Virus record (IMG/VR): IMGVR_UViG_3300025467_000526
Span: 64,001 to 120,433 of that record
Strand: one strand, 5' to 3'
DNA from: a virus
DNA length: 56,433 nucleotides
In this document: piece after piece, positions 3,504 through 19,450 of the stretch
Layout of the letters: every line of letters starts with the position of its first letter
Numbering within the stretch: position 1 is the stretch's first letter
Notes under the pieces: model-generated
What the model saw: only the letters and a program-made list of their open reading frames with translations
Told to the model about the DNA's origin: nothing
Databases searched by the model: none
Translations under genes and position numbers: made by a program

Positions 3504-3530
3504 GTAGTAGTATATTAAGGAGAGTTAAAA

Positions 3531-4264: not shown

Positions 4265-4285
4265 AATTAATTTTACCAAACTACT

Positions 4286-4312: not shown

Positions 4313-4323
4313 ACCTGTACAAT
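4295..4323 (+). promoter_or_regulatory. Sigma70-type promoter for clamp loader, nested in the terminator
   Basis: TAGACA lies in the terminator loop. TACAAT follows after exactly 17 bases, the spacer being the terminator's 3' arm plus its T run. Each element matches five of six consensus bases. Expected start is near 4330, leaving a short leader with AAAGGA before the ATG at 4344. Confidence 0.55.
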
Positions 4324-4343
4324 AAGCAAAACAAAGGAATCTT

Positions 4344-5261
4344 ATGAAAGAACTATGGGTAGAAAAATATCGTCCTAAAACAATCGATGGATATGTTTTT
4401 AGAGATACACATCAAAGAGAACAAATTGAAAGCTGGATTAAACAAGGAAGTATCCCTCATCTGTTATTCAGCGGTAATGCAGGAATTGGTAAAACTACCT
4501 TAGCTAAGATTCTACTAAATGAGTTAGAAGTAAATGATTTAGATGTATTAGAAATTAATGCAAGCCGTACCAACTCAGTTGAGGATGTACGTGATAAAAT
4601 TGTAAGTTTTGTCCAAATGATTCCGTTTGGCGACTTTAAGGTGGTGTTGTTAGATGAAGCAGATTATTTGTCTCCAAATGCTCAAGCGGCATTGCGTGGA
4701 GTTATGGAAGAGTATCACACTACTGCACGTTTTGTTCTTACTTGTAACTATCCTAATCGTATTATTCCTGCCTTACATAGTAGATGTCAAGGATTCCATA
4801 TTGAAAGGGTGGACATTACAGAGTTTACTGCTCGTGTTGCTACTATCCTAGTAGAAGAAAATGTCGATTTTGATTTAGATACACTAGATTCTTTTGTCAA
4901 AGGAACTTATCCAGATTTGCGTAAATGTATTAATACTGTACAGATGAATAGTATGGAAGGTAAATTGCATACACCCGAAAAGGCAGATACAGGGCAAGCT
5001 GATTATAAAATTCAAATGGTTGATTTATTTAAAGCAGGAAAGATTAGCGAAGCAAGAAAACTAGTATGTAGTCAAGCACGACCAGAAGAGATGGAAGAAA
5101 TTTACAGATGGTTGTATGACAATGTCGAGATATTCGGCGACGATGCTACACAAGAAAAAGCTATACTACGAATAAAACAAGGTTTAGCCGACAACACTCT
5201 TGTGAGTGATCCCGAAATAAACCTTGCCGCAACGTTAATTCATTTGAGTCATTTGGTGTAA
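4344..5261 (+). CDS. 44: Sliding-clamp loader ATPase subunit, T4 gp44-like (AAA+ RFC family)
   Basis: Clamp loaders use ATP to open and load the sliding clamp at primer ends for the replicative polymerase. The protein opens with the RFC signature LWVEKYRPKTID, has Walker A GNAGIGKTT (residues 44-52), Walker B VVLLDEADYL with the DEAD-like box, sensor 1 region FVLTCNYP and the arginine-finger SRC motif (HSRCQGF). Its 305 residues are close to the 319 of T4 gp44. The start has a good AAAGGA site. A gp62 partner was not found here, while a probable clamp and the polymerase lie 20 kb downstream. It converges with phoH, with only 7 bases between the stops. Confidence 0.95.
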   Translation: MKELWVEKYRPKTIDGYVFRDTHQREQIESWIKQGSIPHLLFSGNAGIGKTTLAKILLNELEVNDLDVLEINASRTNSVEDVRDKIVSFVQMIPFGDFKVVLLDEADYLSPNAQAALRGVMEEYHTTARFVLTCNYPNRIIPALHSRCQGFHIERVDITEFTARVATILVEENVDFDLDTLDSFVKGTYPDLRKCINTVQMNSMEGKLHTPEKADTGQADYKIQMVDLFKAGKISEARKLVCSQARPEEMEEIYRWLYDNVEIFGDDATQEKAILRIKQGLADNTLVSDPEINLAATLIHLSHLV

Positions 5262-5268
5262 TAATACA

Positions 5269-5988
5269 CTAATCTCCATACACAGCTAACACCTCCTTCA
5301 CTGCGTTATGGCGTTCTATGTCTCTGGCATCGAATTCTACTATATCTAAATGTTTTAGAATTGGATGCTCTTGTAATAAATTACAAAAATCCATCAAGCC
5401 ATTGTCTTTTAAACGATCGGCTTGATTTAAATCTCCTGTCACTACCATTTTACTTCCCTCGCCTAAACGAGTCAACAGCATTTTCATTTGATTTACTGTA
5501 GCATTTTGCATTTCGTCTGCTACTATATATGCGTTTTTGAATGTACGGCCACGCATATAGGCCAATGGACTTATCTCAATAACACCTTCCTCTAGCATTT
5601 TTGCTATGTCTTTTTGATGATAATAGTCCGCAAATACATCAAATATAGGTCTTGTCCACGGTGCCATTTTTTCATTTAATGTACCTGGTAAGAATCCTAG
5701 ATCTTCATCTACGGACACGGCGGGTCTTGTCACTACGATTTTGTCCACAATCCCTTCTTGCAACATCTTAATACCATGCTGAACCGCTAGCATAGTTTTA
5801 CCTGTACCGGCAGGACCGATAGCAAATACTATACTTTTAGTTTCATCTTGGAGTTTTTGGACGTATGTGGCCTGATTAGAGTTACGTGGGTAAAGACTCA
5901 CTCTCGGCTTTTTCGCGGGAAGATACTGCGGAAAATCTATAATGTTAACTTCTGATGTAAAACGCTTTTTCACTCGTTGTTTACTCAT
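5269..5988 (-). CDS. phoH: PhoH-like P-loop ATPase
   Basis: PhoH-family proteins are cytosolic ATPases related to the helicase domain of superfamily 1 and are very common in marine phages; their phage role is unsettled (RNA metabolism and phosphate stress have both been proposed). Walker A GPAGTGKT is near residue 58 and Walker B reads YIVADEMQNAT, with the sensor-like MVVTGDLNQ after it. The length of 239 residues fits the short phage form without PIN or KH domains. It is the only minus-strand gene in the left three quarters of the window, with its own promoter and a leader that can adopt two exclusive structures. Confidence 0.93.
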   Translation of the reverse strand: MSKQRVKKRFTSEVNIIDFPQYLPAKKPRVSLYPRNSNQATYVQKLQDETKSIVFAIGPAGTGKTMLAVQHGIKMLQEGIVDKIVVTRPAVSVDEDLGFLPGTLNEKMAPWTRPIFDVFADYYHQKDIAKMLEEGVIEISPLAYMRGRTFKNAYIVADEMQNATVNQMKMLLTRLGEGSKMVVTGDLNQADRLKDNGLMDFCNLLQEHPILKHLDIVEFDARDIERHNAVKEVLAVYGD

Positions 5989-5996
5989 TAAGTTGC

Positions 5997-6057
5997 TCCT
6001 ACTTTACTGTTAAAGTAGGACTTGTAGTGACCGCCTTTGATAACTACAGAGGTCCTA
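5997..6057 (-). promoter_or_regulatory. Structured phoH leader with two mutually exclusive hairpins, one hiding the ribosome-binding site
   Basis: Read on the minus strand, hairpin A pairs TAGGAC with GTCCTA and, inside it, GTAGT with ACTAC. Hairpin B pairs TCCTACTTTA with TAAAGTAGGA around a 4-base loop (10 bp). The two share the CCTA segment (6016-6020), so only one can form. The ribosome-binding site TAGGAG begins in the 3' arm of hairpin B, eight bases before the ATG. This is the layout of a translational switch; no known riboswitch class was recognised. Confidence 0.55.
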
Positions 6058-6061
6058 CACT

Positions 6062-6090
6062 ATTATTTAACGTATTCCTAGAAAAGTAAA
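6062..6090 (-). promoter_or_regulatory. Candidate sigma70-type promoter for phoH
   Basis: On the minus strand TTTACT is followed after 17 bases by AATAAT (four and five matches). The predicted start, near 6055, falls at the beginning of hairpin A, so whether the full 5' arm is transcribed depends on the exact start site. Confidence 0.4.
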
Positions 6091-6141
6091 CTAATACGTT
6101 ATGATTTTGAACCAGCTAAATAAGTATAGAGAATTCTAGGA
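6076..6141 (+). promoter_or_regulatory. T4-type late promoter inside a ribosome-binding-site-sequestering inverted repeat
   Basis: TCCTAGAA (6076-6083) is complementary to TTCTAGGA (6134-6141), whose AGGA is the ribosome-binding site of the gene at 6149. Between them GCTAAATA (6115-6122) resembles the T4 late promoter TATAAATA. Late RNA would start near 6128 and lack the upstream arm, freeing the ribosome-binding site. Confidence 0.5.
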
Positions 6142-6148
6142 TCAATAC

Positions 6149-6760
6149 ATGCACCACGACATATTAGATGTTATTAAAAACATACAAGAACTATACGAAA
6201 ACAATTCTAGCCTTGCGGTTTTGAAGGACTTTGAACGTGTTTTTGAAGAGATGGACGTATACGTCTATGAAAACTGGATCGATGGTGAATTAGCATACGG
6301 CCCTAAAGTGGACCGTCATTGGATTACAGCCGGCTTTATGTGGCCTAAAGACAAGATGCCTAATCCGACTGCTGGCAAGCGTTTAATGGAATTAGGTTGT
6401 AAAGTTACATATCAAAAGAGTCATTTGCTAGAACCACGCAAAATTAAAAGTCCCCAGGACCTACGTCCAGGAAGTAAAAAAGGTAAACTAGATCGTAAAC
6501 CTATTTGGATTGTAGAAGTACAGATGCCTAAACATATTGCTTTTGAAATTTATCAAGGCTACATGTTTAAGATGAAAGGTAAAGATAAAGACCATATGTT
6601 AACTAACGATCAAGGTAGTGCGCCAGCACCAGCACCGCAAGCACCAGGTGGTGGAATGCCTCCACCAGCACCAGGCGGAGCACCGGCACCAGGAGCCGCA
6701 CCAGGAGCCGCACCAGGCGGGGTAACTCCAGGCGGAGCACCAGGCGGAGTAGCACAATGA
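6149..6760 (+). CDS. Conserved late phage protein with Pro/Gly/Ala-rich tail, probably virion-associated
   Basis: The first 155 residues form a compact conserved domain (LKDFERVFEEMDVYVYENW, later KPIWIVEVQMPK) that I recognise from marine T4-like phages without an assigned function. The last 45 residues are a Pro/Gly/Ala repeat of APGGAP type, flexible and collagen-like. A late-type promoter with an RNA block precedes it, which argues for a structural or assembly role. The next gene overlaps its stop by four bases, and the pair may work together. Confidence 0.85.
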   Translation: MHHDILDVIKNIQELYENNSSLAVLKDFERVFEEMDVYVYENWIDGELAYGPKVDRHWITAGFMWPKDKMPNPTAGKRLMELGCKVTYQKSHLLEPRKIKSPQDLRPGSKKGKLDRKPIWIVEVQMPKHIAFEIYQGYMFKMKGKDKDHMLTNDQGSAPAPAPQAPGGGMPPPAPGGAPAPGAAPGAAPGGVTPGGAPGGVAQ

Positions 6761-7488
6761 AATTAGATGAAAATTTGCGAGCTGGAGATCTGAGAAACTT
6801 AGTTAAAAAAGTTTTTGAAATTGACAGTTATAAAAGTAAAATCGGTGATGATGAAGATATTTGTGTATTAAGTTTTACCGTAGACACTGAGGAACCTGCT
6901 AAAGATTTAGAAAATTTCTTTGAGATGGGTTATAGCTTTGTTTTGGATTCGGATGTTACTCCAGGTGAATTAGACGATGGTAAATATCGTGTATATGTTG
7001 AAATTGAAAGATCAAGACATATTGGCGAACAAATTTTTGAATTAATTGAAGGTGTTAAAAAATTAACAGGCATGGAAGACATGCGTTTTAGATATTTCAA
7101 AAGTTTTAAAAGCGAGCCTGCTACCGTCGAAAGTTTAAGTGCAATAGTACCTAAGGATAAAAATTCTTACAAAATTGCTACTCAAGAAAACAAACTAAAT
7201 AATTTTAGTGAATTTTTTAAACGTAGTTATGCTGACAACATAGTTGTCTTAGATGAAAGTATTACATTCAAAAGAGTGTACAGTGGTGAAGTAACATTTA
7301 ATATTGTAGAAAGTGGACCTAAAGATATAATTCACAATATGATCAAAGGTCCAATTTTATTAGAAAACAAAGACATGGCAGAAGTTATGTTTTTAACTAA
7401 AGTTATTGGTAACTATAACATTGTTAAAGTTGGCAAGACATTTATATTTGAAAATACAAACTGGGCTGTAGCCCTTGAAAGGAAATAA
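6757..7488 (+). CDS. Conserved phage protein paired with the upstream late gene, function unknown
   Basis: A 243-residue protein with a mixed alpha/beta first half (ENFFEMGYSFVLDSDVTPGE, RVYVEIERSRHIGEQI, FRYFKSFK) and an Asn/Lys-rich second half. I recall the same family next to the upstream gene in other T4-like phages. No catalytic motif, signal or membrane segment is visible. Four-base overlaps on both sides suggest translational coupling from the late gene through to the endolysin. Confidence 0.85.
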   Translation: MKLDENLRAGDLRNLVKKVFEIDSYKSKIGDDEDICVLSFTVDTEEPAKDLENFFEMGYSFVLDSDVTPGELDDGKYRVYVEIERSRHIGEQIFELIEGVKKLTGMEDMRFRYFKSFKSEPATVESLSAIVPKDKNSYKIATQENKLNNFSEFFKRSYADNIVVLDESITFKRVYSGEVTFNIVESGPKDIIHNMIKGPILLENKDMAEVMFLTKVIGNYNIVKVGKTFIFENTNWAVALERK

Positions 7489-8123
7489 TGATGGCAGACG
7501 GATTTACATTTGATTTTAGTTTAACAAAGTGTACAGCTATACTTGGAAATAACCCATACAGCGAACATTGGTATGAAGCATTGTGCAAAGTATTGCCCGA
7601 TTACGATATCAACACACCAGAGCGTGTAGCCTGTTTCTTAGGCCAGACCATGGTAGAATCAGCAGGCTATACAGCTATTGTTGAAAATCTAAACTATCGT
7701 CCAGAAACACTTATGAAAGTGTGGCCACACTATTTTCCTACAATGGAAATAGCAAATCAATATGCTCACCAACCAGAAAAGATTGCTAATCGTGCTTATG
7801 GCGGACGTATGGGCAATGGTCCTGAAGAATCAGGAGACGGTTTTAAATATTGCGGCCGTGGACTAATTCAATTGACTGGTAAAAGCAATTACGAACGTTT
7901 TGCAGAAAGCATTGATACTCCGCTAGAAGAAGTTCCAGAATTTTTAACAACATTTGAAGGCTGTGTACAATCAGCTTGCTGGTTCTGGGAAGCAAACAAT
8001 TTAAATGCACTAGCAGATCAAATTGATGTACTTGGATTAACTAAGAAAATTAATGGCGGTACATTAGGTCTACAAGAACGTCAACAACATACTGCTAACG
8101 CACAACAAGTATTACAGGGATAA
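7488..8123 (+). CDS. GH19 chitinase-like endolysin
   Basis: Family 19 glycosidases in phages cut the glycan strands of peptidoglycan during lysis. Catalytic-region signatures are clear: FLGQTMVESAGY with the proton-donor Glu, VENLNYRPETL, YGGRMGNGPEESGDG with the second acidic site, and YCGRGLIQLTGKSNY. The length of 211 residues is that of a single catalytic domain without a cell-wall-binding domain. No Sec signal is seen, so export needs the holin at 8871. Two adjacent ATGs (7488 and 7491) could both start it. The spanin genes follow directly. Confidence 0.93.
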   Translation: MMADGFTFDFSLTKCTAILGNNPYSEHWYEALCKVLPDYDINTPERVACFLGQTMVESAGYTAIVENLNYRPETLMKVWPHYFPTMEIANQYAHQPEKIANRAYGGRMGNGPEESGDGFKYCGRGLIQLTGKSNYERFAESIDTPLEEVPEFLTTFEGCVQSACWFWEANNLNALADQIDVLGLTKKINGGTLGLQERQQHTANAQQVLQG

Positions 8124-8124
8124 T

Positions 8125-8577
8125 ATGTGGCAATTTCAATGGATGATGAGTCTAATACCTGATGCAATATTAAACTGGATTTACTGGGCTATAATTGCAG
8201 TAGGACTTACAGGTATGGTTGCAAGTTGGATTGGAAAATTTATTCCGTTCTACGGCAAATATGTAAGAATATTAAAACCTGTTGGAATTGCACTAGTAAT
8301 TTTAGGTGTATGGTTACGCGGCGGCTACGATGTCGAGATGGCGTGGAAAGCAAAAACAGCAGATCTCGAGTCTAAAGTAGCTGTGTCTGAAAAGCAAAGT
8401 AAGGATGCCAACAATCAATTACAAGATGCATTAAAAGGAAAAACTAAAGTTATCCACAATGTACAAGTTGTTGTCAAAGAACATATTGTACACGATGCTT
8501 CGGCCATAGATGCAGAATGTAAACTTGCTCCAGAAGCAATTAAGGATCTTAATGATGCCGCAGGAGTAATCAAATGA
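8125..8577 (+). CDS. Inner-membrane spanin-like protein (membrane anchor plus periplasmic coiled coil)
   Basis: Two hydrophobic segments (around residues 12-38 and 48-66) precede a charged, Ala/Lys/Gln-rich helix (residues 72-110) typical of the periplasmic coiled coil of i-spanins. The four-base overlap with a lipoprotein gene downstream is the usual i-spanin/o-spanin order; together they fuse inner and outer membranes after peptidoglycan is cut. The extra transmembrane segment compared with lambda Rz leaves open that it also has a holin-like part. Confidence 0.7.
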   Translation: MWQFQWMMSLIPDAILNWIYWAIIAVGLTGMVASWIGKFIPFYGKYVRILKPVGIALVILGVWLRGGYDVEMAWKAKTADLESKVAVSEKQSKDANNQLQDALKGKTKVIHNVQVVVKEHIVHDASAIDAECKLAPEAIKDLNDAAGVIK

Positions 8578-8843
8578 AAAGATTACTAATTTTATCAATT
8601 ATTGTTTTACTTGCAGGATGCAGTACAGCAGTTCCTGTTCAAAGACATTTTCCAGATGTACCTGCTGATATGAAGGTAGCGTGTCCAGATTTAAAATTAA
8701 TCGATCCAAATACAAGCAAACTAAGCGATTTAATTTTAGTAGTCAGTGATAATTACGAACAATATAAAGAATGCAAAATTAAAATAGACGCATGGATTGA
8801 ATGGTATAATACTCAGGAAAAAATATTCGATAGCGTCAAATAA
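8574..8843 (+). CDS. Outer-membrane lipoprotein, o-spanin-like
   Basis: The N-terminus has a lipoprotein signal peptide: two basic residues, a hydrophobic core and the lipobox LLAGCS, so the mature protein starts with a lipidated Cys at about residue 16. The remaining 73 residues contain two further Cys and a short helical end. Position right after the membrane-anchored coiled-coil gene, with a four-base overlap, supports an outer-membrane spanin partner. It shows that the host has an outer membrane. Confidence 0.75.
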   Translation: MKRLLILSIIVLLAGCSTAVPVQRHFPDVPADMKVACPDLKLIDPNTSKLSDLILVVSDNYEQYKECKIKIDAWIEWYNTQEKIFDSVK

Positions 8844-8846
8844 ATA
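8839..8846 (+). promoter_or_regulatory. T4-type late promoter for holin gene
   Basis: AATAAATA matches seven of eight bases of the T4 late element TATAAATA. It overlaps the lipoprotein stop codon and lies 25 bases before the holin ATG, which has a good AGGAG site. Confidence 0.55.
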
Positions 8847-8870
8847 GTAGTACAACAAATAGGAGCGACT

Positions 8871-9347
8871 ATGTCAATGAGTCAGAGCGAAAAGAAAAAA
8901 GAAGATTGGATGAACAGTAAATGGCGTCCAATGATGGGCTGGATGTATATGCTAGTCTGTACTATGGATTTTGTAGGATTTCCAGTCCTATGGAGTTTAT
9001 TACAAGCCATGTCCCATGGGCAAGTTAATAGCCAATGGCAACCATTAACACTTCAAGGCGCCGGTTTATTCCATATCGCAATGGGTGCCATTATTGGTGT
9101 AAGTGCATACGGTCGTACACAGGAAAAATTAAACGGTGCTAACAACGGCGGATTAAGTATGCCAACTAATGTTGGAACAACATATACTCCACCTGCTCCA
9201 ATAACAACTCCTGTGCCAGCAGTAACACCAGTAGCAACTCCTGTAACAGCAGTAACACCAGTAGCAACTCCTGTAACAGCAGTAACACCAGCAGTAAACG
9301 CAAGCGGTAAGAAAGTTATTCCAACATTTTCGCAACCAGCACTATAA
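8871..9347 (+). CDS. 3TM holin (GTA-type holin family) with Thr/Pro/Val-repeat tail
   Basis: The segment WRPMMGWMYMLVCTMDFVGF, then PVLWSLLQA, and later LTLQGAGLFHIAMGAIIGV-AYGRTQEK match my memory of the three-transmembrane holin family found in gene transfer agents and many proteobacterial phages. Holins form inner-membrane lesions that release the endolysin. The C-terminal 60 residues are a Pro/Thr/Val/Ala repeat (AVTPVATPVT units) encoded by an exact tandem DNA repeat, probably a disordered cytoplasmic tail. It belongs to the lysis cluster and has its own late promoter. Confidence 0.82.
   Translation: MSMSQSEKKKEDWMNSKWRPMMGWMYMLVCTMDFVGFPVLWSLLQAMSHGQVNSQWQPLTLQGAGLFHIAMGAIIGVSAYGRTQEKLNGANNGGLSMPTNVGTTYTPPAPITTPVPAVTPVATPVTAVTPVATPVTAVTPAVNASGKKVIPTFSQPAL
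9219..9299 (+). repeat. 30-bp perfect tandem repeat inside the holin gene
   Basis: A 30-base unit occurs at 9219-9248 and again without change at 9249-9278, followed by a partial third copy. It is in frame (10 codons per unit) and encodes the AVTPVATPVT repeat, so copy-number change would alter only the tail length. Confidence 0.9.
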
Positions 9348-9358
9348 GGAAAAATAAA

Positions 9359-9535
9359 ATGAAAAAAATATTAGCATTAGTAATTTCGGCATGTGTACTA
9401 GCTAGTACTCCTGCATTTGCAGAAACTAAAAAGCCAGCACCAAAAAAAGAAGTTAAACATCATAAAAAGGCAGAAGGTACAGAAATCGCAGGTACCAAAC
9501 CCGATACAGTAGTTCAAAAGAAAAAGAAAAAGTAA
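9359..9535 (+). CDS. Small secreted lysine-rich peptide
   Basis: This 58-residue gene has a clear Sec signal peptide: MKK, the hydrophobic stretch ILALVISACVLA, and STPAFA before the cleavage site at about residue 21. The mature 37 residues contain 13 Lys and two His and end in five consecutive Lys. It has an AAGGA site 11 bases after the holin stop. Its place at the end of the lysis cluster and its strong positive charge suggest it acts in the periplasm, perhaps on the outer membrane as proposed for phage disruptins, or as a lysis modulator. It also resembles acid-shock-like host proteins in composition. Confidence 0.7.
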   Translation: MKKILALVISACVLASTPAFAETKKPAPKKEVKHHKKAEGTEIAGTKPDTVVQKKKKK

Positions 9536-9544
9536 TTCAAATCT

Positions 9545-9599
9545 TTGACAGGCTCCGTTTAAGATAGTATAATTACTATTATTAATTGGAGCCTTTTTT
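9545..9599 (+). promoter_or_regulatory. Consensus sigma70 promoter nested inside an intrinsic terminator, driving dnaJ-def-clpA
   Basis: TTGACA (9545-9550) and TATAAT (9568-9573) are separated by 17 bases, a perfect match. The arms AGGCTCC (from 9550) and GGAGCCT (from 9588) enclose the -10, with an inner palindrome ATAGTA-TAAT-TACTAT, and six T follow. Read-through RNA can fold a terminator; RNA started here (near 9580) contains only the 3' arm and cannot. Confidence 0.75.
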
Positions 9600-9605
9600 A
9601 CGACC

Positions 9606-10484
9606 ATGACTGATTATTACCAAACATTAGGTGTTAGCGAAACAGCTAGCCCAGAAGAAATTAAAAAAGCATACCGAAGCTTGGCTAATAAACATCATCC
9701 AGACAAGGGTGGAGATCAAGCCAAATTCAAAGATATCAGCGTTGCTTATGATACATTAAGTGATGCTCAAAAGAAAGCCGAATACGACCACCAACGACAG
9801 TTTGGAAACGGACAACAATTCCATTTTCATACAGGCAATCCGTTTGGAGGACAACCTGGGTTCGATCCGTTTGGTGGTATATTTGGTCAACAATTTCCGC
9901 AAGGTCACCCATTTGGGGATATTTTTGGACACATGCGCCGTGGACAACCTCAGCGTAATAGAGATTTAAACATTCAATGTACAATTAGTTTTTTAGATAG
10001 TTATACAGGCAAACAACTTGAAGCCAGCTATCAATTACCTAGCGGTAAGAAACAAAACGTAGTTATTAGTGTACCAGCAGGCGTTAATAATGGAGACACT
10101 ATTCGATATCAAGGGCTGGGCGATGACAGTATGCCTGGACCACGCGGTAATCTTAATGTTACAATTTTAGTTCAAGCAGAACCCGGTTATGAACGTAGAG
10201 GGGATGATATATTCCATGCTGTGGATATTACTCCCATCGAAGCAATGATCGGTTGCAGAAAACATGTAAAAAATTTATCAGGCACTGTATTAGATTTAGA
10301 TATCAGAGCTGGTATAGAACATGGTGCAGAATTTGCTAGTAACGGGCACGGGTTTCCAAATGTAAATAATGGATACAAAGGAAGATTTGTTACAGTAATC
10401 AAAATTAAACCAACTCCTGTAACCGACTCCGGAATTATTCAACAATTAAAAGATATCGATGCTAAAATTAATCAAAGAAACTGA
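9606..10484 (+). CDS. dnaJ: DnaJ/CbpA-type J-domain co-chaperone
   Basis: J-domain proteins stimulate the ATPase of DnaK and deliver substrates. Residues 3-60 are a J domain (DYYQTLGVSETASPEEIKKA) with the essential HPD motif followed by KGGD. A Gly/Phe-rich linker (residues 75-115, with repeated NPFGG/DPFGG units) precedes two beta-sandwich substrate domains. The Cys-rich zinc domain of class A DnaJ is absent, making it CbpA-like. No phage DnaK is present in the window, so it would act on host DnaK. The promoter is strong but the nearest GGAG lies 14 bases from the ATG, so translation may be modest. Confidence 0.93.
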   Translation: MTDYYQTLGVSETASPEEIKKAYRSLANKHHPDKGGDQAKFKDISVAYDTLSDAQKKAEYDHQRQFGNGQQFHFHTGNPFGGQPGFDPFGGIFGQQFPQGHPFGDIFGHMRRGQPQRNRDLNIQCTISFLDSYTGKQLEASYQLPSGKKQNVVISVPAGVNNGDTIRYQGLGDDSMPGPRGNLNVTILVQAEPGYERRGDDIFHAVDITPIEAMIGCRKHVKNLSGTVLDLDIRAGIEHGAEFASNGHGFPNVNNGYKGRFVTVIKIKPTPVTDSGIIQQLKDIDAKINQRN

Positions 10485-10965
10485 TCCCATATTAAAACAA
10501 CGTGCTGAAGATTGGGACTTTGGGTTAGATTCTAACGCAGATCAACTTGAAGATGAAATGATTGACATAATGATTGCCAACAATGGAATTGGGTTGGCGG
10601 CAAACCAAGTTGGCTTACTCAAGCGAGTATTTGTTATTAAGTTAGATAACGGTCGTAGGCTAGGAATGTTTAATCCAAGATTAATCAAATCTAGCGAAGA
10701 AATACAAATAGCTGAAGAAGGTTGTTTAAGTTTTCCAGATTTATTTCTAGATATTCCCCGTCCTCAACAAATCGACGTTGCATTTCTTGACAAAAATGCA
10801 CAAGAGTGTACAATGACATTATCAGGCATTACTGCTAGATGTTTCCTCCATGAATTGGATCATTTAAACGGTATATGTTTCACTGATAACATTAGTGTAT
10901 TGAAATTAGCAATGGCTCGTAAACGACAAAACAAGATAAGGAACAGTAATGGTCGAACCAAGTGA
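10459..10965 (+). CDS. def: Peptide deformylase
   Basis: Removes the formyl group from nascent N-terminal methionine. All three active-site motifs are intact: GIGLAANQ (residues 43-50), EGCLSFP with metal ligand Cys89, and HELDH with His131, Glu132 and His135. The length of 168 residues is normal for a full deformylase, whereas many phage versions are shorter. It starts inside the end of dnaJ (26-base overlap) and ends inside clpA, so the three proteins are translationally linked. A role in speeding maturation of phage or host-redirected proteins is plausible. Confidence 0.95.
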   Translation: MLKLIKETDPILKQRAEDWDFGLDSNADQLEDEMIDIMIANNGIGLAANQVGLLKRVFVIKLDNGRRLGMFNPRLIKSSEEIQIAEEGCLSFPDLFLDIPRPQQIDVAFLDKNAQECTMTLSGITARCFLHELDHLNGICFTDNISVLKLAMARKRQNKIRNSNGRTK

Positions 10966-13228
10966 TAACCTACAAGCAGTTTTTGAAAAAGCAATTGATA
11001 CTGCTAAGAAACTACATCACGAATATCTAACAATAGAACATTTATTGTTTGCGATGTTATCCGATGAAGGGTTTACTACTACGATAACAGGGTTTGGTAG
11101 TAATCCTGATGCCCTTAAAATTAATTTAGAAGATTATTTGAATAATAAATGCAAAGAAATCGTACTGAATGAAGTAGTAATTAAACCTAAAAAGACTCAG
11201 AGTGTTGAACGTGTACTTAATCGTGCGTTCACTCAGGTATTATTTAATGGGCGTCAAAAAATTGAACCAACTGATGTGTTCCTTGCTATGATAGGCGAAA
11301 AACGTAGTTGGGCGTATTTTTATATTCATCAAGCTGGTATAGATAAAGATAAATTTGCAGAGTATCTTACAAATACTTCCGAAGAAGAATTTGAAGAATC
11401 TGGTCCACAAGAAGGTACAAGTAGAGCACTAGCGGCATTTACAACTAATTTAAATGAAGAAGTTACTAAGAAAAAGATTGATCCAGTAATTGGTCGTATC
11501 GATGAACTAGAAAACATTGCCCTGGCTTTAGGTCGTCGTAGTAAAAATAACGTAATCCTTGTAGGAGATCCAGGTGTTGGCAAAACTGCTATAGCAGAGG
11601 GGCTTGCCTATAATATCGTAAATGGTGCGGTCCCTGAGTTCTTAAAAGAATACAAGGTTTATAGTTTAGATATTTCAGCTATGCTAGCTGGTAGTAAGTA
11701 TCGTGGCGACTTTGAAGAACGTTTTAAACAAGTACTCAAAGGCCTAGCAAAGAAAGGCAAGACTGTGCTGTTTATCGATGAAGCACACATGATTAGCGGT
11801 GCTGGAAGTGCTAGCAATAGTGCCAACGATCTTGCCAATATGATGAAACCTGCTCTAAGCAAAGGCAACATCAAGGTTATAGCATCAACTACGTGGGAAG
11901 AATATCGTAAACACTTTGAAAAGGATCGTGCATTAATGCGTCGTTTCCAACGCATTACAGTTGATGAACCTACTCAAGAAGTTACACTACAAATTCTTAA
12001 AGGTATTAAGAAGTATTATGAACAATTCCATAATACAAAGATCAAAGACGATGCACTTAATGCCGCTATTAAACTGTCGGTTAAATATCAAACAGACAAA
12101 AAATTACCAGATAAGGCAATCGATTTGATTGACTTGGCATGTAGTCGTTTTAATTTAAAATTAGTTGAAGATCGTATTATTTCTGAACGCGAAATTCAAT
12201 TTGAATTAAGTAAATTGGTTAATATGCCTGAAGAAAAGATTATGGAAACAGAGTCTAGCAATATTGCTAGTTTGCAAACTAATCTTGAAAAAGAAGTGTA
12301 TGGACAAGACATGGCTCTTACAGAAATTGTTGACAAGATTATTGTTGCACAAGCTGGTCTTAAGACAGAAAACAAACCAGTTGGTAGCTTTGTATTCATG
12401 GGTCCTACAGGAACAGGTAAAACTGAAACTGCTAAATCGCTTGCTAAACACTTGGGTGTTAAACTATTGCGTTTTGATATGAGTGAATATCAAGAGAAAC
12501 ACAGTATTAGTAAGTTAATTGGTAGCCCACCAGGATATGTTGGCTTTGAAGAAGATGCTGGACAGTTGATTACACAAATTCAAGAAGCACCTAACGCTGT
12601 TCTGTTGCTAGACGAAGTTGAAAAGGCTCATCCAGATGTGATGACTGTACTGTTGCAACTAATGGACAATGGCTTTATTACCGGATCTAATGGTAAGAAA
12701 GCAGATTGCCGTAACATTATCCTTATTCTTACTACTAATGCTGGCGCAAATTCTGCAGAAAAGAACGCAATTGGGTTTGGTAAACAAGAAAAAGACTATA
12801 GTGATGCAGACTTGAAGAAGTTCCTGACTCCAGAGTTCCGTAATCGTTTGGACGGTGTTGTTACATTCAATAAACTCGGTAAAGATACTATGGTTAAGAT
12901 TGTTAACAAGTTTATTGACGAACTTAAAGAACAGGTTAAAGATAAAGCAGTACGTATTAAAATCAACAAAGAAGCAATTGAATGGTTGATTACTAAAGGA
13001 TTTGATCCTAAGATGGGTGCTCGTCCAGTACAACGAGTAATCGATAAAGAGATCAAACGCAATCTTGCTAAGATGATGTTGTTTGGAGAATTGAAGAATG
13101 GTGGCTGGGCTACTATTACACTCGATAATGATCAATTAGCGATTGTTGCTAAAGCAAAAGAATCTAAAGTACCCTTGCTAACTGTAGACTCTACTACTCC
13201 TTTAGTTGAAATACCAGATGCTGTATAA
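10949..13228 (+). CDS. clpA: ClpA-type AAA+ unfoldase with ClpP-binding loop
   Basis: ClpA unfolds proteins and feeds them to ClpP. The order is complete: Clp_N repeats (residues 1-145), D1 with Walker A GDPGVGKT, Walker B VLFIDEAHM and pore loop YRGDFEER, then D2 with Walker A GPTGTGKTE, pore loop GYVGFEE and Walker B AVLLLDEVEKAHP. There is no ClpB/ClpC middle domain. An IGF tripeptide (residues 608-610), where E. coli ClpA has IGL, should dock into ClpP. The 759 residues equal host ClpA length. No ClpP is visible here, so it likely redirects host ClpP. The last 30 residues are an extra tail. Confidence 0.95.
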   Translation: MVEPSDNLQAVFEKAIDTAKKLHHEYLTIEHLLFAMLSDEGFTTTITGFGSNPDALKINLEDYLNNKCKEIVLNEVVIKPKKTQSVERVLNRAFTQVLFNGRQKIEPTDVFLAMIGEKRSWAYFYIHQAGIDKDKFAEYLTNTSEEEFEESGPQEGTSRALAAFTTNLNEEVTKKKIDPVIGRIDELENIALALGRRSKNNVILVGDPGVGKTAIAEGLAYNIVNGAVPEFLKEYKVYSLDISAMLAGSKYRGDFEERFKQVLKGLAKKGKTVLFIDEAHMISGAGSASNSANDLANMMKPALSKGNIKVIASTTWEEYRKHFEKDRALMRRFQRITVDEPTQEVTLQILKGIKKYYEQFHNTKIKDDALNAAIKLSVKYQTDKKLPDKAIDLIDLACSRFNLKLVEDRIISEREIQFELSKLVNMPEEKIMETESSNIASLQTNLEKEVYGQDMALTEIVDKIIVAQAGLKTENKPVGSFVFMGPTGTGKTETAKSLAKHLGVKLLRFDMSEYQEKHSISKLIGSPPGYVGFEEDAGQLITQIQEAPNAVLLLDEVEKAHPDVMTVLLQLMDNGFITGSNGKKADCRNIILILTTNAGANSAEKNAIGFGKQEKDYSDADLKKFLTPEFRNRLDGVVTFNKLGKDTMVKIVNKFIDELKEQVKDKAVRIKINKEAIEWLITKGFDPKMGARPVQRVIDKEIKRNLAKMMLFGELKNGGWATITLDNDQLAIVAKAKESKVPLLTVDSTTPLVEIPDAV

Positions 13229-13805
13229 AATCACTACAAAATTATTTAGAGGAAAATACCAGTACAAAATTGTACTGGTATGCAGTGTTTCTGCATGGTT
13301 CCGTTCGGGGGACATGCCTGAAACTATACAGCGAATTAAAGAATTAGACTCACCCAAACGTCAAGATGCTAAAGAATACGGTCTTAAGATAGCTTTAGAA
13401 CTTCTAAACCATCAAGATGTTGACGTTCGTGTAGAAAGTCCTTGGATTAGTGTATATACTAATGATAAAAAACTAATAGATCGTCTAGCTAAGATTGATA
13501 AAAATAATGTTAAGTACATTAGCGAACCAGCTGGTTCCCTAGAAGAAAATACTATTTTAATGCCCAAGATGAATTTTGATTATCGTATTACCCTGGGTAA
13601 AACTACTCAAGAACACAGTTCATTTATTGCATGGGCGGAATCTAACCCTAAATTAAAACTAACCCCAAGTTGCAAAAAGGATCTATTAAAGGAACGCACT
13701 TGGGGAGGCAAGCATTTTTATCTCACCGGAGATAACAATTTGCTATTGGCTAAGATGCATTTAGGTGGTAGTATAGCTAAAATCGAACGCATTGTTAAAA
13801 AATAA
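13218..13805 (+). CDS. Conserved T4-like phage protein, function unknown
   Basis: The 195-residue protein begins MLYKITTKLFRGKYQYKIVL and contains a strongly conserved-looking middle (VESPWISVYTND, then ILMPKMNFDYRITLGKTTQE) and end (WGGKHFYLTGDNNLLLAKMH). I recall this family from other T4-like marine phages but no function. It begins inside the end of clpA, so it is co-expressed with the proteostasis genes. ATG 13218 was chosen over an in-frame ATG 12 bases upstream because its sequence fits the family start I recall. A perfect inverted repeat lies at codons 13-22. Confidence 0.85.
   Translation: MLYKITTKLFRGKYQYKIVLVCSVSAWFRSGDMPETIQRIKELDSPKRQDAKEYGLKIALELLNHQDVDVRVESPWISVYTNDKKLIDRLAKIDKNNVKYISEPAGSLEENTILMPKMNFDYRITLGKTTQEHSSFIAWAESNPKLKLTPSCKKDLLKERTWGGKHFYLTGDNNLLLAKMHLGGSIAKIERIVKK
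13256..13281 (+). repeat. Perfect 10-bp inverted repeat near the start of a coding region
   Basis: ATACCAGTAC and GTACTGGTAT flank AAAATT. In RNA this is a 10-bp hairpin (12 bp if the outer loop bases pair) about 40 bases into the gene. It could slow translation or protect the clpA 3' end, or be a protein-binding palindrome in DNA. No T run follows, so it is not a standard terminator. Confidence 0.6.
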
Positions 13806-13820
13806 ACTCGTTACAAAAGC

Positions 13821-13828
13821 GATAAATA
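13821..13828 (+). promoter_or_regulatory. T4-type late promoter upstream of the internal head protein block
   Basis: GATAAATA followed by CT matches seven of eight positions of the T4 late element. It lies 47 bases before the next ATG; a small hairpin (GCAGA with TCTGC, 13837-13850) lies between. Confidence 0.6.
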
Positions 13829-13874
13829 CTCTAACCGCAGAGATTTCTGCTGATTTATTAAAACGGGCTTAAAA

Positions 13875-14249
13875 ATGCGTATACGTGAACTATTTGAAGG
13901 TAATTTTTTTAAAGATGCCGATTATGTACAAGCTAAAGAAGGTGGCGAGCGTGAAATTAACTACGATTTAGTTGATGATATAGCACACTTTATGGAACAA
14001 GACGATCACTGCTATCGTCGATTCTTTCATCCTGCATTGGATCGATTCCTTCATGTCAGAGAAAATAAAAAAGATCCTAAGCCTGAAATCTTTAAAGAAG
14101 CTGTCAAAGAATGTTATAAAATATACGTTCAAAAATTTCCCATCCGTGAACTACCAGATGAATTAGATGAAGATACACTAGGTCAAGTTTGTGAAAAATT
14201 GTATGATGAACACAGTACACATCATGCTGATGGCAAATACAAGGATTAA
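13875..14249 (+). CDS. Probable packaged head protein with capsid-targeting-like N-terminus
   Basis: A 124-residue acidic protein of unknown fold. Its start MRIRELFEG resembles the T4 capsid-targeting sequence of internal proteins (MKTYQEFIAE type), where the prohead protease cuts after (I/L)-x-E; here the site would be LFE|G at residue 8. The body contains an aromatic, acidic helical part (HFMEQDDHCYRRFFHPALDR). It is the first gene after a late promoter and is followed after two bases by the giant internal protein. The targeting role is inferred. Confidence 0.8.
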   Translation: MRIRELFEGNFFKDADYVQAKEGGEREINYDLVDDIAHFMEQDDHCYRRFFHPALDRFLHVRENKKDPKPEIFKEAVKECYKIYVQKFPIRELPDELDEDTLGQVCEKLYDEHSTHHADGKYKD

Positions 14250-14251
14250 TA

Positions 14252-17200
14252 GTGTTTCTTAGAGAATTATTTTATCGTAACCACTCTGCTTTAAACGAAG
14301 GCGGAAACCTTAGCATTGGCGATGCAGACAGTGGTGAACCAGTACACTATGCAGACAAGATAGATTTAGCAGTACATAATCGTACGTACATGGTTGGACT
14401 TTTAAATAAGTTATTGCATGACATTAATCTAGCATTTCATAAACAAACTAGAAAAAATTTATGGGAACCTAACCTACTAAAGAGCAAAGAATTCCTAAGC
14501 GGTAGTAGTTTGCATTTCTTTAACACTGAAGGTATTAGTGATGAGGAATTTGCCAAACATAAACCACGTGTGGGCGATATCGATACACAATGCAATAGAG
14601 ATTTAGAACCACAAGTTAAAGAATTCTTAACAAAATATACAAACAAACAGATCGGCGACACTACATTGCTAGGATTTGGTAGTGGTAATGAACAGTATAA
14701 CGCATTATTCCAATTTGCAAATCCTCCAATCAAAATACAAATCGATTTTGAATTTGGCGAGTATGAAGGCGGAGTTCCTAACGATTGGTTTAAATTTAGC
14801 CATAGCTCAGAGTGGAACGATGTTTCAAACAATATTAAAGGTGTGTTCCACAAATATTTGTATAGAGCATTAGCAGGTTCAATTAAAGTACATGCACATC
14901 TAAAATCATCGGAAGGTCGAGGCAAAGCCAAAGTAACTACAGTAACTCCCGATCATCTTTCAAAATATTCATTTGGGGTATCAGGTAAACAAGGCGGTGG
15001 TCTAAGTGAACCATACAGTCCAGTAGTGGGAGACAATGACGAGCCGCAAGAATTACCACATCCAGAAAATCCGCAACAACAGTTGCCAGTAATGCAAGTG
15101 GCAAAACCAGAAACTCGTGTATACGATCAGCATCTACATAGTCAATTTAAAAAACTATTTCTACGAAATAATCCTAATGCAGAACCTACTCCAGAAGATT
15201 TAAAATTACAATGGAGTTTCTTAGGTACTGTTGACTTAATAGGCAAATATCTATCTAAACAAGAACAACACGAAACAGTAAAACGTTTCTTTGAAATTTG
15301 TTTCGAACCTGGCAGTCAGATGATCGAGCGTGATGATCCTAAAAGTGATGCCGATATTAAATTTGCCGCTATTGATCAAATGTTAGAAAAATTGAATCTA
15401 ACAAATATGAGATCATTAGCAGTTGACATGGCAAAAGAATACGAGGGAGAATTTTTAGATTTAGAAAAATTTAAAAAGAGCTATCAGCGTACTCCAGACC
15501 AAGCTGGTAAAAAAATACAATACGGTAGACATAGAAAAGATGCTATTGCCGGCGGTACATGGCCAGATTGGCGTAAAAACTCAACCGAACAAATATTTGA
15601 AGCAGAAGTCAAAGCTCAACTTAGAAAAAATATGCCGCATATGAAAGATCTAAAAGCCATAGACTTTTTAGATCTAGTAGATGAATTACACGACAATGGT
15701 AAATTTCAACTAAAAAATATTCCATTAAATGTTAAAATAGATGGATTTGGTGGGCGGTTTGGTAAAGACTCGGAAGGTAAACCTTTCATGGGTACTAGTA
15801 ATACTCCTCCTAGATACGAAGCTGGTTTTTTAAAATATCATCAGGCAAAGGGCACACAGGATCCAGAAATACTAGGTCGTGCTAAAAAATTCGACGATTT
15901 ATTTAATGAAATGATCAAGGCAGTTAAACTAGTCGACGATGCCGCAGGTCCAGAGTTGCTTATGAATAAACAAGTAACTTGTGAAGTTTTATTTTTACCA
16001 TTTGCTACAGAAACTGAAGAAGGCAAATTAAAATTTGTTGGTATCCATTACAATAAATTACCAAGAGGTGTACAGTTAGCCTTAGTTCCATTCCGTGTAG
16101 CAGATGCAACTACTGGAGAAGATGTACCAGATGCGGCGAAGATTATTAAAACTATTACTAGCATTGGACAACAAGGTAGTATTATGTTTATCAGTAACGC
16201 ATTAACACAAAATAAACCGTTAGACGTAACTGAAATTATCAATGTTTTAGATAATATCGACGAACTTAAACGCATCGTTTCAGATACGCATGGTAAACGT
16301 GATCGTGCCAGTGTACAGTTAAGAAAAGAAGTTGAAGAAAAACTAGCACCAGTTAAACTTGAATTAGAAAAAGCTATTATTAATGATCCTAACATTGTTG
16401 GAAAAGATTTGCTAGGTAAAGACTACGAAGGTATTGTCATTAATAGTCGACTGGGTCCTATTAAAATTACTAGTCAAGAACAGCGAGATGTTATTAGTGC
16501 CAAAATGGCGGCTAAGGCAAGTGCAAGAACCGAACGTCCTCGTGAAAATTCTAACAAAACGGCTGTAGTTGCTATCGGTAGCTTTGTAGGCCACATCGGG
16601 CATGAGCAATTATTTGACTATACTATTAAAAAAGCACAACAAGTAGGAGGTGATCCTTATTTGTTTATTGGAAATGCTGAAGGCAAAAACGATCCTATCC
16701 CACCAAATGTTAAAGTTCAAACATGGCATAAAATGTATCCAAATTATGCCGCTAATATTAGTACAGTAACACACGAAGGCGGTACGCTAATTCAAAAAAT
16801 TAAACATGAATTAATTAATCCGTTACCGGGCAAGCCTCCACGATACGATAATATTATTATTATGGTAGGTGAAGATCAAGCAGGGTTGAATATGCCAGCC
16901 GCTTTAATGAAGGCAGTTAATAAGTTTCAAGGGTACGAACATGTAAAAGTTAGTTTAGAAACTACACCTCGTGGAACCGGTATGAGCTTTACTCAGTTGC
17001 GTAATATTCTTAAAGATCCAAAAGCTACTCCGCAACAACAGTTGGCGTTATGGGAAAAAGGGTTTGATGTTAACAAATTAGGCAGAGCATGGATTCAACA
17101 TCTAATGGATTTGACACGTAAGGGTATGGGAATTACAACACCAAAACATACACATCATGTTCAGAAACCTGCTATTCCTGCACCAGAACAAGAACCGCTA

Positions 17201-17653
17201 AATATAAAAGAAGCAAATTATTGGATTAGAAAAATGCGAGCAAACGAATTTATAAAAAAACAGTTGTCCGAAGGCGATATTCCAGCTAACGGTAAGAAAT
17301 TTGACAAAAGCGAAATGGATGCAGTTCGTGGAGCATTGAGTATGCCGGGCATCAGTATTAACAAAGCTAACGGTAATCCTTATTCTGGATATCGTTTTGG
17401 TATTGCTATGGCTGGCGCACACAGTAAAGCCAATCACGAACACCATCAAATAACTCCGCCAGCAGGACCTATGGCTGGGGATCCTTTGTTAACTGTGTTT
17501 GCTGATGAAGAATATGATATCATTAAAAATGCCGCTAAAATGGTAATGGCTGGTCCTATTGTTCAGCTTAGTGACATGCGTAGTCATGAATTACCCACAA
17601 CCAACAAAACAAGTCCTGTGGCTAATAAAAAACGTAACAAGTACGGTGTATAA
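14252..17653 (+). CDS. Giant (1133 aa) probable internal head protein with three nucleotidyl-transfer-like regions
   Basis: It starts at GTG. The N-terminus MFLRELFYR-x6-LNE|GG looks like a capsid-targeting leader with a protease site. Around residue 109 a GDIDTQ motif in an alpha/beta context resembles Pol-beta-type nucleotidyltransferases. A central region fits the covalent nucleotidyltransferase (ATP-dependent ligase) superfamily: KIDG (lysine 495, motif I), EVLFLPF, YEGIVI (Glu726, motif IV) and PIKI (motif V-like). At residues 781-784 HIGH, in VGHIGHEQLFDYTIKKA, is the signature of cytidylyltransferase/NMN-adenylyltransferase folds. The last 139 residues are homologous to the next gene and begin with an internal MRANEFIKKQLSEG, as if a formerly separate gene was fused. 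Activity is unproven. Confidence 0.8.
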   Translation: MFLRELFYRNHSALNEGGNLSIGDADSGEPVHYADKIDLAVHNRTYMVGLLNKLLHDINLAFHKQTRKNLWEPNLLKSKEFLSGSSLHFFNTEGISDEEFAKHKPRVGDIDTQCNRDLEPQVKEFLTKYTNKQIGDTTLLGFGSGNEQYNALFQFANPPIKIQIDFEFGEYEGGVPNDWFKFSHSSEWNDVSNNIKGVFHKYLYRALAGSIKVHAHLKSSEGRGKAKVTTVTPDHLSKYSFGVSGKQGGGLSEPYSPVVGDNDEPQELPHPENPQQQLPVMQVAKPETRVYDQHLHSQFKKLFLRNNPNAEPTPEDLKLQWSFLGTVDLIGKYLSKQEQHETVKRFFEICFEPGSQMIERDDPKSDADIKFAAIDQMLEKLNLTNMRSLAVDMAKEYEGEFLDLEKFKKSYQRTPDQAGKKIQYGRHRKDAIAGGTWPDWRKNSTEQIFEAEVKAQLRKNMPHMKDLKAIDFLDLVDELHDNGKFQLKNIPLNVKIDGFGGRFGKDSEGKPFMGTSNTPPRYEAGFLKYHQAKGTQDPEILGRAKKFDDLFNEMIKAVKLVDDAAGPELLMNKQVTCEVLFLPFATETEEGKLKFVGIHYNKLPRGVQLALVPFRVADATTGEDVPDAAKIIKTITSIGQQGSIMFISNALTQNKPLDVTEIINVLDNIDELKRIVSDTHGKRDRASVQLRKEVEEKLAPVKLELEKAIINDPNIVGKDLLGKDYEGIVINSRLGPIKITSQEQRDVISAKMAAKASARTERPRENSNKTAVVAIGSFVGHIGHEQLFDYTIKKAQQVGGDPYLFIGNAEGKNDPIPPNVKVQTWHKMYPNYAANISTVTHEGGTLIQKIKHELINPLPGKPPRYDNIIIMVGEDQAGLNMPAALMKAVNKFQGYEHVKVSLETTPRGTGMSFTQLRNILKDPKATPQQQLALWEKGFDVNKLGRAWIQHLMDLTRKGMGITTPKHTHHVQKPAIPAPEQEPLNIKEANYWIRKMRANEFIKKQLSEGDIPANGKKFDKSEMDAVRGALSMPGISINKANGNPYSGYRFGIAMAGAHSKANHEHHQITPPAGPMAGDPLLTVFADEEYDIIKNAAKMVMAGPIVQLSDMRSHELPTTNKTSPVANKKRNKYGV

Positions 17654-18177
17654 TGAGAGCGAAAGAATTCATAGTTGAACAATCTGTAAAACCAACAGAT
17701 TCTCCTGCCAAGGCTTCTAAAAAAGCCAAACAAACCCAGGTTGTCAAACCCTACGTGGCTAAAGATTTTCCTATGAAGAAAAAATTAGGCGATTTTGGTC
17801 TAGATCCACACGAAGCACATAGTCAAAGTCAAAGCAACACCGAATATGGTAGTACTAAAGGAGATGTACCTATAGAGGCCGTAGCGGCTATGCCGGGTGC
17901 ATTTAGTGTTCAAGATATTCCTAGCGATTTCTACAGCATGTATCGTATTGGAGTAGCTATTGCCGGCGGTGAAAGAAACGTGGCTTCAAAAGATAATTTT
18001 GGTAAGCATCCATTCTTTATGCCTTTTTCAGAACAAGAACATGCTAAAATTACCAAAGATATTAAACGTATCGGTCACGACATTGAATTACGAACAACTC
18101 CTGAAAGTTTAGAATTGTCGACTGTAAACCAAAAAAGTCCAGTAGCTAAACGCAAGCCAAACAAATACGGTGTATAA
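17653..18177 (+). CDS. Paralogue of the giant protein's C-terminal domain, probable packaged protein
   Basis: The N-terminus MRAKEFIVEQ matches the internal MRANEFIKKQ of the preceding protein and the T4 capsid-targeting pattern, with a protease site IVE|Q. The C-terminal half aligns with the end of the giant protein: MYRIGVAIAGGERN versus YRFGIAMAGAHSK, then SPVAKRKPNKYGV versus SPVANKKRNKYGV. So the two arose by duplication. The function of the domain is unknown. Start and stop codons overlap with both neighbours (TAATG), consistent with coupled late expression. Confidence 0.8.
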   Translation: MRAKEFIVEQSVKPTDSPAKASKKAKQTQVVKPYVAKDFPMKKKLGDFGLDPHEAHSQSQSNTEYGSTKGDVPIEAVAAMPGAFSVQDIPSDFYSMYRIGVAIAGGERNVASKDNFGKHPFFMPFSEQEHAKITKDIKRIGHDIELRTTPESLELSTVNQKSPVAKRKPNKYGV

Positions 18178-18617
18178 TGGAACATAACAAATATCATTTA
18201 GCCCTTAAAACAGCATTTGCCAGTGAATTTAGTTTTTATCTAAAAGCACACAACTTTCATTGGAACGTAGAAGGTCCATTGTTTGAAAGTCTACATGCAT
18301 TGTTTGAAAGAATTTATTTAGAAGTATACGGTAGTATCGACACATTTGCAGAACATTTACGTGCATTACAAATTTATGCACCAGGAAGTTTACAAAAGTT
18401 TAGTATGTTAACTAATGTACGTGATGAAAATGATGTTCCAGGATTTCACGAGATGCTGAGCGAATTGTTACAAGACAGCGAAAAAATGGCTAATATTTTC
18501 CGTATTACTTTTGAAATGGCAGAACAAAATGGCGATCATGGATTAAGCAATTTCTTAGCCGACCGTCAAGATGCACATAAAAAGCATAGCTGGATGTTAA
18601 GAGCGAGCTTGAAGTAA
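18177..18617 (+). CDS. dps: Dps-family ferritin-like DNA-protection protein
   Basis: Dps proteins form 12-subunit shells that oxidise and store iron and protect DNA from peroxide. The family core is present: KAHNFHWNVEGPLFESLHAL, then SIDTFAEHLRAL. The inter-subunit ferroxidase ligands of E. coli Dps (His51, His63, Asp67, Asp78, Glu82) correspond to His28, His40, Glu44, Asp55 and Glu59. At 146 residues it lacks the Lys-rich N-terminal tail used by E. coli Dps to bind DNA. It sits inside the block of probable head proteins, which raises the chance that it protects packaged DNA or works late in infection. Confidence 0.9.
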   Translation: MEHNKYHLALKTAFASEFSFYLKAHNFHWNVEGPLFESLHALFERIYLEVYGSIDTFAEHLRALQIYAPGSLQKFSMLTNVRDENDVPGFHEMLSELLQDSEKMANIFRITFEMAEQNGDHGLSNFLADRQDAHKKHSWMLRASLK

Positions 18618-18847
18618 TGGATGAACTAGCACGTCTTAAGAAGTTGGCAGGCATTAATGAATTTAAGGGCTTGCAACCTTATGGCGGAAGTAACATCAGT
18701 ATAACTGGTACAGAGAAACGCATTATCGAACGTGAACAAAATATACAACCTGGAACTGAAGAATGGTTCAAACTATGGTTTAGTTTACCTAAATTTATGG
18801 GTGGAGAACGTGCAGTAGGTAATGGGTTTAGAGGAATCAAAAAATGA
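18617..18847 (+). CDS. Small probable packaged protein
   Basis: A 76-residue basic protein beginning MDELARLKKLAGINEFKG; the amphipathic helix and the possible protease site INE|F fit the leader pattern of its neighbours. The remainder has Gly-rich stretches and an aromatic patch (EEWFKLWFSLPKFMGG). I recall similar short MxELxRLxxLAGI starts in marine T4-like phages. Its start overlaps the dps stop and its stop overlaps the next start, so it is part of one late operon. Confidence 0.7.
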   Translation: MDELARLKKLAGINEFKGLQPYGGSNISITGTEKRIIEREQNIQPGTEEWFKLWFSLPKFMGGERAVGNGFRGIKK

Positions 18848-19422
18848 AAATTAAAGAATTGTTAGAAGGCCCTTATGAAGATGGCGTAAATGATGGTAAA
18901 CGAGGTCATCGAAATCCACGTGCCAGTTCTATATATGGTCCTTCATCAGATCATTATGAAAAAGGTTACCAACACGGCGTCACCTTAGGAAAAAAAGAAG
19001 GTGAAGCAAACGTAAGAAGATATGAAGAGTGGCTTAAACCTTTTTCACATCTGTCAAATGAAGAACTTCACGACCTAGCAGAAAAATTTAGACGTAGTCC
19101 AGAAGATAGAATGGCAAATGGACAACCGTATCCATATAACAGTAAATTTCAAGCAATACATCAAGTATTAGGTCAGCGAAGACACAATCCAAATTATGGG
19201 TTAGATGCTAAACATGGTGTAGCGGAATCAGCTAGTGCAGGTGCTACAAGTAGTGCTAGTATTGCCAGTGTTCCTAACCCTAATTACGCCAATAATGCTA
19301 ATAAAAAACCTGTAAAAAGCGTTAGTGCCCTTGATCAAAATAGTGTAAGTTTATTTGGCGCACCTATGGAAACCATGAAAAACAAAACAGGTAAAAAGTT
19401 AGCAATAATCAAAAGACGCTAA
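18844..19422 (+). CDS. Probable packaged head protein with leader MKIKELLEG
   Basis: The N-terminus MKIKELLEG repeats the capsid-targeting-like pattern with a possible cut LLE|G. Residues 10-60 contain Gly-Tyr/Gly-rich units (DGVNDGKRG, KGYQHGVTLGKKEGE), then a helical charged part, and a low-complexity Ala/Ser/Asn linker (SAGATSSASIAS) seen in other phage internal proteins. A second possible cut is VAE|S before the linker. The C-terminus is basic (KKLAIIKRR). The structural role is inferred from pattern and position. Confidence 0.75.
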   Translation: MKIKELLEGPYEDGVNDGKRGHRNPRASSIYGPSSDHYEKGYQHGVTLGKKEGEANVRRYEEWLKPFSHLSNEELHDLAEKFRRSPEDRMANGQPYPYNSKFQAIHQVLGQRRHNPNYGLDAKHGVAESASAGATSSASIASVPNPNYANNANKKPVKSVSALDQNSVSLFGAPMETMKNKTGKKLAIIKRR

Positions 19423-19425: not shown

Positions 19426-19450
19426 TATAAAGATAACGGAGTTACATAAC

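Follow-up and report, generated by a model that had tools for sequence, protein, structure and literature searches.

A dnaJ-def-clpA operon with a candidate role in a phage-encoded protein-quality system

Four overlapping genes encoding a DnaJ, a peptide deformylase, a ClpA and a conserved 195-aa protein were analysed in a 56 kb stretch of DNA from a large phage (the window, which spans positions 64001-120433 of a virus record of 120433 bases). With moderate confidence, we read this operon as supplying the unfoldase and the co-chaperone, one half of a protein-quality system encoded by the phage, the other parts of which would lie elsewhere in the same genome. These phages probably carry most of their own protein-quality machinery rather than borrow that of the host: a ClpP gene is encoded on the same record, and long relatives encode their own DnaK and ClpS. 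The features are collected in Table 1.

Table 1. Position of the operon, its control elements and the associated genes (window coordinates unless the whole record or the relative G017 is named)
Feature	Position	Strand	Description
Sigma-70-type promoter	9545-9573	+	TTGACA-17-TATAAT, perfect match
Terminator-like hairpin and T run	9550-9599	+	AGGCTCC 9550-9556 / GGAGCCT 9588-9594, T run 9595-9599
dnaJ	9606-10484	+	292 aa; class B (CbpA-like) J-domain protein
def	10459-10965	+	168 aa; peptide deformylase, all three motifs
clpA	10949-13228	+	759 aa; Clp_N, D1, D2, IGF loop
Conserved gene without assigned function	13218-13805	+	195 aa counted from ATG
GroES-like gene (probable), outside operon	3830-4264	+	PF00166 19.2 bits, cut-off 21.1; phrog_3188 E 5e-4
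clpP	record 32212-32802	same strand as clpA	196 aa; 42 kb upstream of clpA
dnaK-hsp20-clpS cassette	G017 300172-302924 and just beyond		

As described in an earlier note on this DNA, the four genes lie behind one consensus promoter, with successive overlaps of 26, 17 and 11 bases according to the ORF coordinates. The fourth gene is counted here from the ATG at 13218, whereas the ORF caller chose the TTG at 13206. The identities of dnaJ, def and clpA are concordant in Pfam, PHROGs and NCBIfam. DnaJ matches the Pfam families DnaJ (PF00226, 78 bits) and DnaJ_C (PF01556, 98 bits); a motif scan found HPD at residue 31 but no zinc-finger repeats, which, with the C-terminal domain, is the composition of a class B (CbpA-like) protein, and residues 2-291 align to the CbpA model PRK10266 of NCBIfam at a score below its equivalog cut-off. 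The deformylase (Pep_deformylase, PF01327, 151 bits) is full length with all motifs, again as first described, these being GIGLAANQ at 43, EGCLS at 87 and HELDH at 131, and it scores above the equivalog cut-off of TIGR00079 in NCBIfam (142 versus 104 bits).

The intact motifs, the linkage of the genes, their conservation and the promoter can all be read directly from the sequence. Gene order is retained in relatives with ClpA identities of 57-100%, with dnaJ present in 64/64 relatives, def in 51/64 (it is missing from 13) and the 195-aa gene in 82 of the 83 that have enough downstream sequence, which bears out the earlier view of the fourth gene as a conserved one. Across the contigs compared, this conservation of order exceeds chance. 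The dN/dS values (0.01-0.24) indicate purifying selection, and such selection across many related contigs suggests that the kit matters to these phages.

ClpA is composed of Clp_N (PF02861), two AAA modules (PF00004 and PF07724) and ClpB_D2-small (PF10431) in Pfam. Walker A motifs are located at 206 and 485, both Walkers being found in 83 of 84 loci, and the pore loops are KYRG and GYVG. The N-domain and the IGF loop previously reported were both recovered, the loop exactly at 608-610, where it aligns with the E. coli IGL; it is kept in 81/84 loci. Alignment to the solved E. coli ClpA (1ksf) gives 653 bits across 12-729. The protein misses the NCBIfam equivalog cut-off of TIGR02639 (867 versus 993 bits), although this is still the best of all models, and it is therefore described as ClpA-like but diverged from host ClpA.

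A ClpP-family search of the whole record returned one strong match, at 32251-32793. The encoded protein belongs to the S14 family (PF00574, 254 bits) and has the triad Ser98/His123/Asp174, a Ser-His-Asp triad that is intact in 80/80 ClpP proteins of relatives; its N-terminus begins at the mature E. coli LVPMVIEQ, with the propeptide absent. That clpA and clpP are non-adjacent speaks against a joint system. In all 14 records holding both genes, the window's own among them, clpP precedes clpA and shares its strand, at a distance of 16-57 kb (worked out by hand from the search coordinates). Each of the 11 records that extend 57 kb or more upstream of clpA, again counting the window's own, has ClpP. 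The survey covered 26 records obtained through ClpA or ClpP relatives and 20 through DnaK or ClpS relatives; clpA-bearing records lacking ClpP are too short to judge, and G001, which is almost identical to the window's record, does not count as an independent case.

This ClpP is over the cut-off of the canonical ClpP model NF001368 (295.5 versus 249 bits), under that of the ClpP-related head protease family NF045542 (106.6 versus 120 bits) and under that of the equivalog TIGR00493 (277.6 versus 308.6 bits), and by these model scores it is far closer to canonical ClpP than to the head protease family. The comparison bears on whether the kit mainly aids virion assembly, with ClpA unfolding or disaggregating proteins but not degrading them, ClpP maturing heads, and DnaJ, DnaK and Hsp20 folding very large structural proteins. 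The operon is near predicted structural genes, that of phage PA5oct is beside such genes, a 4167-aa protein is encoded on the window's record, and some database records label related ClpPs 'head maturation protease'. Given the canonical character of ClpP, the retention of the ClpP-docking loop in nearly all ClpA loci and a ClpS adaptor of no obvious use in assembly, we regard such a role as doubtful.

Five relatives of 102-383 kb (G017, G027, G029, G030 and G034) hold ClpA, ClpP, DnaK and ClpS on one record. The DnaK of G017, a relative of 345 kb, is full length (848 bits) and above the DnaK equivalog cut-off (TIGR02350, 900 versus 823 bits), and its gene is adjoined by those for Hsp20, ClpS and heme oxygenase. 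ClpS in this relative scores 101 bits to PF02617 (cut-off 23) and has the N-degron pocket residues NDD, TPMEF and IMLxxH when aligned with solved ClpS. Among viral contig stretches longer than 9 kb found via DnaK, dnaK, hsp20 and clpS occur together in 63/63. In G017 and G027 some 115-117 kb separate the cassette from clpA, which follows it; the distance is about 112 kb in G029, assuming a circular genome, and about 78-80 kb in G030 and G034, which are less closely related. DnaK and ClpS were not found in the window's own record, which has 75 kb upstream of clpA; as the record ends before the expected cassette site, this absence is uninformative. From the relatives, we infer that the window's own phage would also carry dnaK and clpS. 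DnaK contigs that share the window's IMG sample numbers are separate fragments.

In a quick tree with a midpoint root, the 55 phage DnaKs all group to one side of a branch that has a support of 100. The bacterial DnaKs nearest to them are mostly betaproteobacterial, which may point to hosts in this group. These bacterial neighbours, among them Limnohabitans and Polynucleobacter, and the usual origin of such sample sets indicate that the phage lineage is probably a freshwater one. Two further observations concern the cassette. A heme oxygenase gene is found beside it in 62 of the 63 contig stretches, and in the 67 kb relative G040 dnaK-hsp20-clpS occurs with clpP and a 408-aa frame within about 7-12 kb, this frame being weakly similar to ClpA and perhaps a ClpX.

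The earlier note had proposed that the phage captures host ClpP and host DnaK, and had named beforehand a ClpP gene nearby as a finding against this. Such a gene is now identified on the record, and relatives encode a full-length DnaK of their own, so neither part of the proposal is supported. The inference failed as it rested on absence from the 56 kb window: the statement that ClpP and DnaK are not present is correct for the window, but not for the record, which holds ClpP. That phage ClpA and DnaJ chiefly redirect host ClpP and host DnaK to chosen proteins is, in light of these phage-encoded partners, unlikely, even though the IGF loop and HPD motif are preserved. Precedents for an action on host DnaK come from Rki of RB43, a J-domain protein that targets host DnaK and stabilises sigma-32 (PMC3486835), and from a survey of jumbo phages which predicts that phage DnaJs recruit host HSP70 (PMC7824862). 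Rki is, however, reportedly no generic co-chaperone, and is thus a weak analogue for a full-length class B DnaJ. The phage proteins may also form mixed complexes with the ClpP or DnaK of the host.

The kit that had been called unusually complete is fuller than first described, with ClpP on the record and DnaK and ClpS in relatives. Its GroES-like member is retained as probable: the window's own protein scores below the PF00166 cut-off, yet those of four relatives exceed it. GrpE and GroEL were not found in the ten records searched, the 345 kb G017 included, and the kit is therefore not self-sufficient but needs supply from the host.

In the phage-encoded quality system that we favour, phage ClpA would dock on phage ClpP via its IGF loops and feed it unfolded proteins, and ClpS, which is seen in the relatives' cassette and presumed for the window's phage, would deliver proteins whose N-terminal residue is bulky and exposed. 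DnaJ, together with a phage-type DnaK and Hsp20, would act in the folding of bulk phage proteins or in holding them for degradation, with the host supplying GroEL, and GrpE for nucleotide exchange. The deformylase would deformylate the surge of newly made phage proteins. That phage ClpA assembles with phage ClpP is a prediction drawn from sequence, as are the substrates and the timing. More tentatively, a phage-dedicated ClpS-ClpA-ClpP N-degron protease and a DnaK-DnaJ-Hsp20 set could reshape the survival of host and phage proteins largely independently of the host, although we would not yet bet on it. The question then shifts from the recruitment of host ClpP and DnaK to the role of a ClpAPS protease and an Hsp70 set that belong to the phage.

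Genes that counter host defences are usually patchy in their distribution, and the conservation of this kit in nearly every relative makes it improbable that its function is to degrade or misdirect proteins of the host's stress response and immunity, such as NLR-type sensors using DnaJ. Such counter-defence was proposed for the chaperones of moraphages, citing DnaJ-dependent sensing by bNACHT25 (PMC12619734).

The 195-aa protein has no significant Pfam match, and its gene is single copy, with no paralogue in the window's record or in G017. It evolves faster than ClpA (54-64% versus 80-88% identity). The AlphaFold2 model (pLDDT 94) consists of two ferredoxin-like (ACT/RRM-like) halves. Clear fold matches are confined to proteins of uncultured Caudovirales and a single protein of Atu_ph07, and the best solved structures are short ferredoxin-like domains with weak scores (Z <6); this arrangement is common and gives no function. 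The idea of a ClpS-like adaptor found no support in sequence or fold: there is no PF02617 match and no ClpS among the fold matches listed, although a missing fold match leaves ClpS possible, and the modelled protein, with its two ferredoxin-like halves, does not look like ClpS. Our guess from the model is a small regulator that binds a ligand, RNA or protein.

The promoter of the operon scores 12/12 in 43 of 59 relatives, whereas shuffled upstream regions score at most 11/12. Perfect consensus promoters number five in the window, and there are dozens of near matches in G017; that of the operon is thus ordinary in itself and special only in its position within a terminator-like hairpin, between whose arms lie the -10 box and the predicted start of transcription. 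These arms covary across relatives, in which 20 distinct 5' arms occur: of 7 positions, 6.6 are paired on average when each 5' arm is matched to its own partner, versus 5.68 with swapped arms (maximum 6.25 in 500 swaps), in a test that ignores kinship among relatives. On the simplest reading the hairpin would be the terminator of the upstream lysis genes, holding the next promoter within it. Readthrough RNA from the lysis genes would fold the hairpin and terminate, whereas RNA begun inside it would lack the 5' arm and transcription would go on into the operon. A host-type RNA polymerase would read the operon, the expression of which would thus be separate from that of the lysis genes. The 3' arm (GGAG) may serve also as a ribosome-binding site (window 9545-9605).

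A dnaJ-(def)-clpA arrangement with distant clpP and clpS is already known from the cultured jumbo phages Atu_ph07, Phosso and PA5oct; the new features here are its combination, within a single lineage, with a DnaK and ClpS cassette of the phage's own, and the gene for the 195-aa protein. The Sinorhizobium phage Phosso (PV764938) has dnaJ-def-clpA on one strand, arranged as in the window, and it carries its own clpP, and hsp20-tk-clpS, both elsewhere in the genome. It differs in that clpS does not adjoin dnaK, the window ClpA is 44% identical to its ClpA, it is absent among the best 30 of 44 DnaK matches, and no sequence match to the 195-aa gene was found in it or in any other cultured phage. 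For the Agrobacterium phage Atu_ph07, the part of the 2018 description used here reports ClpA (gp292), DnaJ (gp293), ClpP, ClpS, ClpX and ClpB, for which its authors proposed roles in aggregate removal (PMC6102473). As in the window, dnaJ adjoins clpA, and ClpP and ClpS are also encoded; unlike the window, the operon is without def, ClpX and ClpB are extra, and DnaK is not among the proteins reported in that part. The Pseudomonas phage PA5oct and close phages (Wroclawvirus) share with the window the order phoH, structural gene, dnaJ, clpA, and encode ClpP and ClpS as do the window's relatives, but their operon has neither def nor the 195-aa gene and ClpA is 43% identical. As PA5oct and Phosso are culturable and have ClpA, ClpP, ClpS and DnaJ, substrates can be searched for directly.

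Moraphages are aquatic jumbo phages which widely share ClpA and in some cases have DnaK, DnaJ and Hsp20 (PMC12619734). Their predicted hosts and most of their DnaKs are Bacteroidota, in contrast to the mostly betaproteobacterial DnaKs nearest to the window's lineage, and ClpP and ClpS, both present in that lineage, are not mentioned in the part of their description used here. The E. coli ClpAPS resembles the phage set in domain layout, catalytic triad, docking loop and ClpS pocket residues; the phage loop is IGF rather than IGL, the phage ClpP has no propeptide and clpS of the relatives does not adjoin clpA. ClpP, ClpS, ClpA and DnaJ are each reported from parts of the jumbo phages surveyed (PMC7824862). 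In AP-J-162, the deformylase (gp154) is numbered next to DnaJ (gp155), and GroES, six Clp proteins and Hsp20 are also listed. 'Acinetobacter phage MD-2021a', with adjacent clpS and clpA, was discarded as bacterial sequence on account of its neighbours argC, aroF and fadH.

Elsewhere on the record, a dense run of radical-SAM-looking proteins, one of them confirmed by Pfam, is found among apparent oxygenase-like proteins at 2249-21856. At 45681-46031 lies the gene for a protein of iron-sulphur cluster assembly (PF01521, 79 bits), and G017 also encodes a NifU_N protein. An SPFH/Band 7 membrane protein (105 bits) is encoded at 29494-30426, about 2 kb upstream of clpP.
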